IMG/VR virus record: IMGVR_UViG_3300035698_005223 | Span: 1-33,753 of that record | DNA: 33,753 nucleotides | Reading direction: 5' to 3' (one strand) | Source of the DNA: a virus | Position numbers and translations under genes: made by a program | Shown: in pieces, positions 3,588 to 27,258 of the stretch | Numbering within the stretch: the first letter of the stretch is position 1 | Layout: every line of letters starts with the position of its first letter | Notes under the pieces: model-generated | What the model was told of the DNA's origin: nothing | Databases searched by the model: none | The model's input: only the letters and a program-made list of their open reading frames with translations

Positions 3588-4403
3588 TTACTCTGTTGCT
3601 GTTGGAGTACCACCAAATTGACTTAGATGTGCTTGCATATAAGCGTTTATTGTTGCAGCATCTATTCCATCTTCAGCCATCCTAGCTAATACTTGATAAT
3701 AATTTCCTTTGTTTCTATTATCTAATCTTGCAGCTTCACCTTGGAATAAACTATTTGTTACTCCACTTAATCCTTCAGATATTAATTGTGAACGCATCAT
3801 ATTATCTTTAGCAAGTACTTGTTGTGTTTTCCACTCATTCTGATTTTCAATCATTGCATTCTTATTAGCTATTTGTGATGTAGCCTGTGCTTGTTTATTA
3901 ATAACACCTGTTTCTGCTCTATTCAATTTATCAATAGCATTTTCTTGTCCTGTTATAGCACCACCTACTGCTTGTATCCCTAAATTTGGATTACCATATC
4001 TCATAGCTATATCTCTTGCTCCACTATAAGCTCCACTCATTCTAGTATTGATACCTCGTAACATATCATCTCTGTTGAACTTAAATTCTGGTGTTTCTAA
4101 ATATGGTGCTTCAGGAGTTACTGGTGCATCAGTATTTATATTCTGTACCATAGATAAAGCATGAAGTCCAGCATCTACAGCAGACTTCTTTTTATAAAAC
4201 TTATCTATATCAGCAAGGTACTCTTCATCATTCTTTAACCAATCATAAGCTTCATTTTCTGAAGGCGATCCTTCTATATTAGAAGATTCCCATTCATTAA
4301 TAGGAGTTAATTCAGTAGGAAGATTACTTCCTATTTTTATTTCTCCTGCTCTTTTTGGTTTCATACGAGTAATTGGATCTACTCTATCATTTAAAATTGC
4401 CAT
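3588..4403 (-). CDS. Helical internal virion protein candidate, 271 aa
   Basis: Unrecognised. After a disordered N-terminus (about 1-60) the protein is almost wholly helical and rich in Gln, Asn and Ala, with the segments YSGARDIAMRYGNPNLGIQ, ITGQENAIDKLNRAETGVI, and SLFQGEAARLDNRNKGNYYQ. Such long polar helices are typical of internal or ejected virion proteins and of tail-needle proteins. The order muzzle, Gly-rich protein, this gene and the two large genes that follow resembles the cargo block of crAss-like phages. Spaced 12 and 19 bases from its neighbours. Confidence 0.65.
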   Translation of the reverse strand: MAILNDRVDPITRMKPKRAGEIKIGSNLPTELTPINEWESSNIEGSPSENEAYDWLKNDEEYLADIDKFYKKKSAVDAGLHALSMVQNINTDAPVTPEAPYLETPEFKFNRDDMLRGINTRMSGAYSGARDIAMRYGNPNLGIQAVGGAITGQENAIDKLNRAETGVINKQAQATSQIANKNAMIENQNEWKTQQVLAKDNMMRSQLISEGLSGVTNSLFQGEAARLDNRNKGNYYQVLARMAEDGIDAATINAYMQAHLSQFGGTPTATE

Positions 4404-10014: not shown

Positions 10015-10602
10015 TTACTTTCTTTTAAAATAAAACACTCTTCTAACCCTTTCTTGCTCTTTCCTGTATTTTTCTACCTTTTCTTTATCTAATGTAATCT
10101 CTAATCTTTTATAACTTACTCCTTTTCTAATTTCTTCTTCTAATAACGCATAATATCTTCTTTTAAATCTAACATTAAAGATCACTCCATTTGTTTGTAT
10201 TATCCCTGCTTCTTTATAATGTAATACAGGAATGTATCTTGGCTTCTTTCCTTTATATTCATTGATTAAATCTTTCTTCGTTGGTGCTATGAATAAAACT
10301 CCAAAATCCTTCTGTGGAAACACAAAGGGATTCTGATACTTAACCATCTCATCAACAATATTTTCTTCATATTCTTTTACTATTTGCTTTGCTATCCTTA
10401 ATCCAAAACTCCTTCTACTTTCAGTCTTACATTTCAAATGGATATTTCTATCTATTGTCTTTTTAAGTTTTCTCTCTATCGGAACTTCTTTATGATAGTA
10501 CCTTAACCTTTTAAATTTATGGTCAAATATTTCTTCTAATCCTACTTCCTGTATTATCTTTTCCTGTCCTTTATACTTAATTACTTTGTTTTTCACTTTC
10601 AT
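10015..10602 (-). CDS. Highly basic protein in the ring cluster, 195 aa
   Basis: Unrecognised. Very rich in Lys and Arg throughout (for example KFKRLRYYHKEVPIERKLKK, KYRKEQERVRRVFYFKRK at the end) with a small hydrophobic, Pro-containing core (FGVLFIAPTKKDLI, RYIPVLHYKEAGIIQTNGV). It starts with overlap inside the preceding gene and ends two bases before the next. The charge suggests contact with DNA inside the tail channel or with acidic virion proteins. A tail-neck or ejection role is inferred from position only. Confidence 0.6.
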   Translation of the reverse strand: MKVKNKVIKYKGQEKIIQEVGLEEIFDHKFKRLRYYHKEVPIERKLKKTIDRNIHLKCKTESRRSFGLRIAKQIVKEYEENIVDEMVKYQNPFVFPQKDFGVLFIAPTKKDLINEYKGKKPRYIPVLHYKEAGIIQTNGVIFNVRFKRRYYALLEEEIRKGVSYKRLEITLDKEKVEKYRKEQERVRRVFYFKRK

Positions 10603-24139: not shown

Positions 24140-24526
24140 TTATTTCTTTATAACATGAGCAACAAGTAGAACTACTGCTACTGTTGTTGAGGCAATAGTC
24201 CACCATGTTAATTTTTTCTTTTGCTCTTTATATATATCTTCTTTTAAATCTAATTGTAAATCTTTCTCATCTATTATGTCTCTTGCAATATTAAAGTGAT
24301 ATTCTAATGTATCATATTCTATTTCTAATGCTACAGAATACTCTTCACAAATCTTACCTTCAATAAGTTGATGGTTTATTTCCTTTAATGTTTCTGCTGA
24401 TATGAATACTCCTGTATCACCTTTAAATACTATCTCGTTTTGAGAGTAACTCAAAGAGCAATTCATAATTATTAGTAACATTATTGCTATCGACTTCATT
24501 ATGTAGTGGCTTATACTTTTCATCAT
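24140..24526 (-). CDS. Candidate unimolecular spanin, 128 aa
   Basis: An N-terminal export signal (MMKSISHYIMKSIAIMLL, hydrophobic core to about residue 22) is followed by Cys23 in IIMNCSLSYSQ and a C-terminal membrane segment over the last about 25 residues (WWTIASTTVAVVLLVAHVIKK), with a helical, acidic region between (YDTLEYHFNIARDIIDEKD). A lipoprotein signal plus a C-terminal membrane anchor is the layout of unimolecular spanins such as T1 gp11, which join the outer and inner membranes. The lipobox is imperfect (Asn at -1); SPI cleavage after LSYS is an alternative. I start at the first ATG because AGGAT precedes it; the ATG at 24499 is possible. The 5' end lies inside the upstream gene. 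Confidence 0.65.
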   Translation of the reverse strand: MMKSISHYIMKSIAIMLLIIMNCSLSYSQNEIVFKGDTGVFISAETLKEINHQLIEGKICEEYSVALEIEYDTLEYHFNIARDIIDEKDLQLDLKEDIYKEQKKKLTWWTIASTTVAVVLLVAHVIKK

Positions 24527-25890: not shown

Positions 25891-26385
25891 TTATATTTCC
25901 TGTATCTCTAGCCATACATCTACTGTTCTTCCTGCTCCTGGACTCCATACACTAGCAGATATTCTTGTTCCTGCATTGAAGATAAAATCTGTTGCATCTC
26001 CTGAACCACTAGCCTTGTTTTTCTTTGCTGCAAAAATAGCTTCTGCAAAAAAGGAAGTCCCTGAGTCTGCTGAAAATCTTATTAATGTATTTTCATCTGA
26101 TGATGGTTGTACTGTAAAACCAATTACTTTAAACGGTTTGGTAGATGTTACTGCAGCACGTAATTCTGTATCTGATCCCCAATCAGCATTTCCTGCTGTT
26201 ATTTCAACCCCTGTTAAATCTTCAGGTTCTATTGATATCTCAAACTCTCCTCTTATACCATTAAACAAATGTCCACCTACTTCATCATCTACATTTAAAG
26301 TATTATTATAAAATAATATATCATCAAAAAACATTGCTGTTCCTGCATCTATATTTGCTCCTATTGCACGTACAAAATTCAACAT
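25891..26385 (-). CDS. Beta-helix fibre protein, C-terminal part, 164 aa (frameshifted)
   Basis: From residue 5 (VRAIGANIDAGTAMFFDDIL) it continues the beta-helix pattern that breaks off in the upstream gene, and then has a C-terminal beta-sandwich (about 70-164) ending AGRTVDVWLEIQEI, a tip-domain type seen in Bacteroidota phage fibres. As an independent gene it would start at ATG 26385 and overlap the upstream gene by 62 bases, unlike the 1-13 base overlaps of the rest of the cluster. An in-frame TAG stands two codons before that ATG. The simplest reading is a single fibre gene with a +1 shift at the T4 run, from assembly error, mutation or recoding. Confidence 0.75.
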   Translation of the reverse strand: MLNFVRAIGANIDAGTAMFFDDILFYNNTLNVDDEVGGHLFNGIRGEFEISIEPEDLTGVEITAGNADWGSDTELRAAVTSTKPFKVIGFTVQPSSDENTLIRFSADSGTSFFAEAIFAAKKNKASGSGDATDFIFNAGTRISASVWSPGAGRTVDVWLEIQEI

Positions 26386-27073
26386 CTGCTAATTTATTAA
26401 GTGCTGAATTGGCTCCTAATTGTTGCATTCCTGTTATACAAAATCCTATTCGAGTATCTTTTATTTCAGTACATTCTGCATTATCTAAACATATACCTGT
26501 CATATAAGTATAGGAGTCTTCTCCTTTTATATCGCAGTTTCTTATCTTGCCATTTTTTATTGAAGTAGTTCCATCTAAATGAATAGCTATTGCAGTACTT
26601 GTCAAGTCTTCACCAACAAACATACAATCATCAACACGAAAACCTCCTGCAGTAAATATTACTCCATCATTTCCTGTTCCTAGATTAATGTTTAAATCTT
26701 GAAGTCCCACATAACCAGTAAATTTAAAAATAGATGTTGCAGAAGCATGTGTATTTTTAATCTTAGTCCAATTTCTATGTGAACCTTTTAGAATATAATT
26801 ACCAGTATATGTTGGATCACCTGTAGTATATATATCATAATTATTTGCTCCTGTATTCACAGCAATCAAAATTAAAGTACATTCATTAACATCAGTACTA
26901 GCGACTGCCAAAGCACCTTGTATAGTTGTATATGCTGTGGACCAACTTAAACCATCTGTATCATCTCCATTAGGAGATACAAACAATGTTGCTGTAATAG
27001 CTCTATTATCTATGGAACTACCTATTGCTGAATTTAATCTACTTATGTTTGCACCTTTAGTTATTGCTATCAT
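26324..27073 (-). CDS. Beta-helix fibre protein, N-terminal part, 249 aa (frameshifted)
   Basis: Residues 31-54 (LFVSPNGDDTDGLSWSTAYT) are the typical entrance to a right-handed parallel beta-helix of the pectin-lyase type, followed by helix turns (about 60-230) such as YVGLQDLNINLG, FRVDDCMFVGED and IKNGKIRNCDIKG. Many receptor-binding fibres and depolymerases use this fold. After Phe233 the frame leaves the beta-helix pattern and gives 16 Cys/Arg-rich residues and a stop. The natural continuation is in the +1 frame, in the next gene. Removing one T from the TTTT run (26374-26377) would fuse both into a 393-residue protein. The true ending of this gene is therefore in doubt. Confidence 0.75.
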   Translation of the reverse strand: MIAITKGANISRLNSAIGSSIDNRAITATLFVSPNGDDTDGLSWSTAYTTIQGALAVASTDVNECTLILIAVNTGANNYDIYTTGDPTYTGNYILKGSHRNWTKIKNTHASATSIFKFTGYVGLQDLNINLGTGNDGVIFTAGGFRVDDCMFVGEDLTSTAIAIHLDGTTSIKNGKIRNCDIKGEDSYTYMTGICLDNAECTEIKDTRIGFCITGMQQLGANSALNKLADVEFCTCNRSKYRCRNSNVF

Positions 27074-27258
27074 GATTTTGTTATTTTAAGTTCTTTTATT
27101 TTAGGGATATCTTTTATATCTATTTCTTGCCAATTCTTAGGATTATCATTAAATCCTAAATGTACATTTTTACTACAAACAGTTAAGTCTTTTTTGCTTT
27201 GTAATATCTTGCCTTCTTCAGCAATTAATAGTATATATTTCATTTCTTTTCTTATCAT
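27070..27258 (-). CDS. Hypothetical small protein, 62 aa
   Basis: Unrecognised small soluble protein. It begins MIRKEMKYILLIAEEGKILQ, with a second possible ATG at residue 6. The short strand-rich pattern (YILLIAEEGKIL, VHLGFNDNPKNWQEIDIKDIP) would suit a small beta domain. The stop TGA overlaps the ATG of the beta-helix gene as ATGA, so both are translationally coupled and it may act as a chaperone or attachment partner of that fibre. This is inferred from position only. Confidence 0.55.
   Translation of the reverse strand: MIRKEMKYILLIAEEGKILQSKKDLTVCSKNVHLGFNDNPKNWQEIDIKDIPKIKELKITKS

Follow-up and report, generated by a model that had tools for sequence, protein, structure and literature searches.

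The 33,753-nt stretch of DNA analysed here (the window), which is a single IMG/VR virus record (IMGVR_UViG_3300035698_005223), carries on its minus strand two overlapping open reading frames that very probably (at about 0.9 by our estimate) are the remains of a single gene. This gene would encode a beta-helix fibre or tailspike-like protein with a C-terminal beta-rich part, interrupted by a net two-base deletion just past the EFCTC codons, and is in this sense an ordinary broken gene. Sequence comparison shows that the relatives encode the two halves in a common frame, and of the contigs found only this one has the break.

Two overlapping frames match one protein family

The upstream ORF (26324..27073, minus strand) encodes 249 aa and the second ORF (25891..26385, minus strand) 164 aa; the overlap between them is 62 bases long, and a TTTT run lies at 26377-26374, all as the original prediction had described. 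The N-terminal half contains most of the beta-helix. It was thought to leave the beta-helix pattern at Phe233, and it does continue from there with 16 more residues (CTCNRSKYRCRNSNVF) to a TGA, but the Cys-Thr-Cys that follows Phe233 still aligns with the family (EFCSC in relative L004), so that only 13 codons are truly out of the family pattern before the stop. The C-terminal half holds the last beta-helix rungs and the C-terminal beta-rich part. Past the junction, the +1 frame runs without an internal stop over 157 codons compared with 15 stops in each of the other frames, and is therefore open beyond what chance would give. Its ATG at 26385 is probably fortuitous, and is not conserved in that frame in the relatives L004 and L001. 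The 62-base overlap had been considered unusual; its length is correct, but overlaps of 104 (24423-24526), 29 (3588-3616) and 26 bases (10577-10602) occur elsewhere in the contig. The longest of these joins two small membrane-type ORFs beside an amidase gene, an arrangement that spanin pairs can have. Rereading of the TGA was rejected, since homology would stay lost with the matching sequence lying in another frame, and so was an alternative genetic code, as TAA, TGA and TAG all serve as ORF ends in the window (table 11).

Scanning the two halves separately with tblastn retrieved different contigs, with 47-70% identity to intact relatives for the N-terminal half and 39-76% for the C-terminal half. 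Every contig found in this way (L001, L002, L003, L004/L005 and L006) carries both halves in one unbroken frame. Four intact relatives were aligned, and a broader scan with this alignment yielded 25 viral loci and one genome contig, corresponding to 22 distinct relatives once identical proteins were removed; two of them (L001 and L030) run off the end of their contigs, and near-duplicates (L023/L024 and L025/L037) make the number of independent lineages slightly smaller. Both halves lie in one uninterrupted frame in 21 of the 22, the exception (L037) being broken elsewhere, and none is broken at the window's position. Two separate genes with the same overlap, which the original prediction had proposed looking for among homologues, were likewise absent from all 22. 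Most family members also share a conserved C-terminal ending, W-L-x-I-Q-E-I. Both ORFs match a single protein family from end to end, and the proposal that a net +1 shift splits one beta-helix fibre gene is borne out. A pattern scan for sister copies with or without the indel found none, and no fibre relatives were found in the phage records searched. The flanks of the fibre gene in L002, L003, L004 and L006 show it in differing neighbourhoods, which suggests that the gene moves between phages.

The frame changes beyond the T run

The family match is carried by the upstream frame up to and including EFCTC and by the +1 frame from AIGANIDAG onwards, and the closest relative reads EFCSCAIAANLDAG without a break across the junction. 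Two family landmarks are separated by seven residues in 20 relatives and by eleven in the other two (with the residues of L039 counted by eye). Skipping one T in the TTTT run leaves six residues, one fewer than in any relative, whereas seven remain if the net change is two bases lost beyond the run. Pairwise DNA alignments to L004 and to L001 each open a gap of two bases in the window sequence immediately 3' of the TTTT, at about 26365-26373 (minus strand). The run itself (26374..26377, minus strand) is present in phase in these two closest and intact relatives, where it is read normally as the Phe-Cys codons TTT TGT. Because the run is in phase there, and given the residue count and the alignment gaps, the frame change does not lie at the T run, and the slip originally placed there was rejected. 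The idea that the +1 frame resumes the pattern exactly at Phe233 is accordingly right about the continuation and wrong about the point, which falls within about 26365-26373. The assignment of two bases rests on relatives at about 70-76% identity, and a one-base gain plus the loss of one residue is conceivable instead.

A predicted beta-helix fibre in a crAss-like phage

An AlphaFold model of the intact L004 protein (mean pLDDT 81, with residues 1-59 unreliable) shows the repeated short strands of a beta-helix and, after them, a C-terminal part rich in beta structure. The break maps inside the beta-helix, among its later rungs, and the strands run on to residue 427 of the model. The best Foldseek matches are phage beta-helix proteins (tailspikes and fibres) and polysaccharide lyases, among them Kp32gp38 (9qrm), the Agrobacterium phage 7-7-1 tail fibre (9rkv) and the HK620 tailspike; they are weak, with TM-scores of about 0.2-0.4 that support the fold class only. 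The likeness to right-handed beta-helix tailspikes, depolymerases and tail fibres thus consists of the beta-helix model, the weak fold matches and a location close to the terminase, with structural genes on one side and lysis genes on the other. Unlike those proteins, the fibre has no Pfam, PHROG or PDB sequence match, and no catalytic residues are assigned here. The model would place the protein in the beta-helix tail fibre or tailspike class, and receptor binding is predicted from the fold and the gene neighbourhood.

The window is a contig of a crAss-like phage that has not been cultured. The crassvirus family PF23898 is matched by its major capsid protein (E 2e-13), phrog_6547 by its portal and phrog_6681 by its terminase; among phage records the terminase matches uncultured crAss-like, Flavobacterium, Cellulophaga and similar phages, with every match under 60% identity. 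From these matches, the host is probably a Bacteroidota bacterium. Immediately upstream of the fibre gene, a 62-aa ORF (27070-27258) matches positions 159-284 of contig L040 at 40% identity and on this basis is probably a real small gene. L040 also holds the closest terminase relative, which is 75-79% identical in amino acids to the window terminase and contains an in-frame, intein-like insert of about 358 codons (L040:3242-4315) that the window terminase lacks; the terminase-like ORF of L002 contains an intein-like insert as well. A search for relatives of the 622-aa fibre gene found none, and no member of the broken fibre's family was found in the closest terminase kin (G007), a record that may be incomplete.

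Recoding, phase variation and a split gene as improbable readings

Past the break the second frame stays open and its sequence is conserved, and a TTT_T context lies close by, features that would fit programmed frameshifting giving a short and a long fibre form. There is also a likeness to the prfB type of +1 programmed frameshift, in that a net +1 shift occurs with a T run nearby. The window differs from prfB, however, in having no stop codon in the A site (the codon after TTT is TGT), no conservation and a shift point outside the T run. None of the 22 relatives has the arrangement, the intact ones read the TTTT in frame, and a slip at the run gives the wrong residue count. No slippery site is present where the homology changes frame. 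RNA past the site folds less strongly than its shuffled versions do on average (z +0.94 and +1.00), revealing no unusual or stimulating structure downstream, and the window's other genes contain 60 in-frame instances of TTT_T. A literature search for programmed frameshifting in tail fibres found no papers. We therefore rejected recoding as unconserved and unstructured, and regard it as the least probable of the explanations considered.

Conversion into two working genes, the second starting at the ATG at 26385, draws on the presence of that start and its 164-codon frame, but the cut would then fall within the beta-helix of the L004 model rather than between domains, the start is unconserved, and no relative is split there; this explanation, too, was rejected as highly improbable. 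Hardly more probable is phase variation, in which a slippage tract would reversibly switch a receptor-binding protein. Fibres are plausible targets for such a switch, and of two nearly identical contigs one carries a broken second family member (L037). The site, however, has no simple repeat that is long enough to change length often, only four Ts, and the break lies outside them, while the L037 break, a 94-base deletion showing a single base of microhomology, would not be readily reversible. With the break unshared, RNA folding weak, TTT_T common and the second start unconserved, what is left is damage or error.

Age and origin of the lesion

Compared with L004, the downstream half has 76% amino-acid identity (dN 0.18, dS 1.61, dN/dS 0.11), with 0.19/0.14/0.50 differences per codon position, and the upstream half has 68% identity (dN/dS 0.25). 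By these measures the downstream half is no less conserved than the upstream half; it is under purifying selection and shows no sign of decay. Since it is conserved and free of internal stops, the lesion is either young or absent from the real genome, and we infer that it is recent.

A dropped pair of bases in the contig, with the phage gene itself intact, is one form that the broken frame could take, and such a sequencing or assembly error had been among the causes first suggested. We retain it as unlikely but of real weight: all relatives are unbroken at this place, decay is absent from the downstream half, and the window's main structural genes form long, intact ORFs. Against it, short reads would seldom lose two bases outside a homopolymer, and no second break was seen in the window, although most of its genes have no relative for comparison. 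As such losses are unusual, we consider a true mutation in the sampled phage about twice as likely as an assembly error.

The second broken member, L037 (G009:C1:5440-6466), carries its 94-base frameshifting deletion in the same fibre gene, independently of the window's break. Outside the deletion, its contig differs from that of intact L025 (G008) by 3 mismatches in about 14.3 kb and by a ten-N gap in the L025 contig. The deletion is perhaps a sign that the fibre gene can at times be dispensed with, or perhaps a further fault of assembly. That the window's gene is truly disrupted in a living population, in a family repeatedly inactivated by frameshifting deletions because its members are dispensable, swappable receptor-binding modules lost during host-range change, is a doubtful extension of these observations.

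An ordinary broken fibre gene agrees with what is seen in frameshift-disrupted phage fibre genes, whether pseudogenes or assembly indels, in its unbroken homologues, its unique lesion and its otherwise undecayed halves, and we noted no difference from them. From such a gene, ribosomes would read 13 wrong codons after EFCTC and then stop, and the upstream product, without the last rungs and the C-terminal part, would probably be non-functional. The family to which the gene belongs would represent a beta-helix fibre that occurs in varied phage neighbourhoods and matches no Pfam or PHROGs model. For annotation, the two ORFs are best described as one disrupted fibre gene, and not as two proteins or a recoding site.
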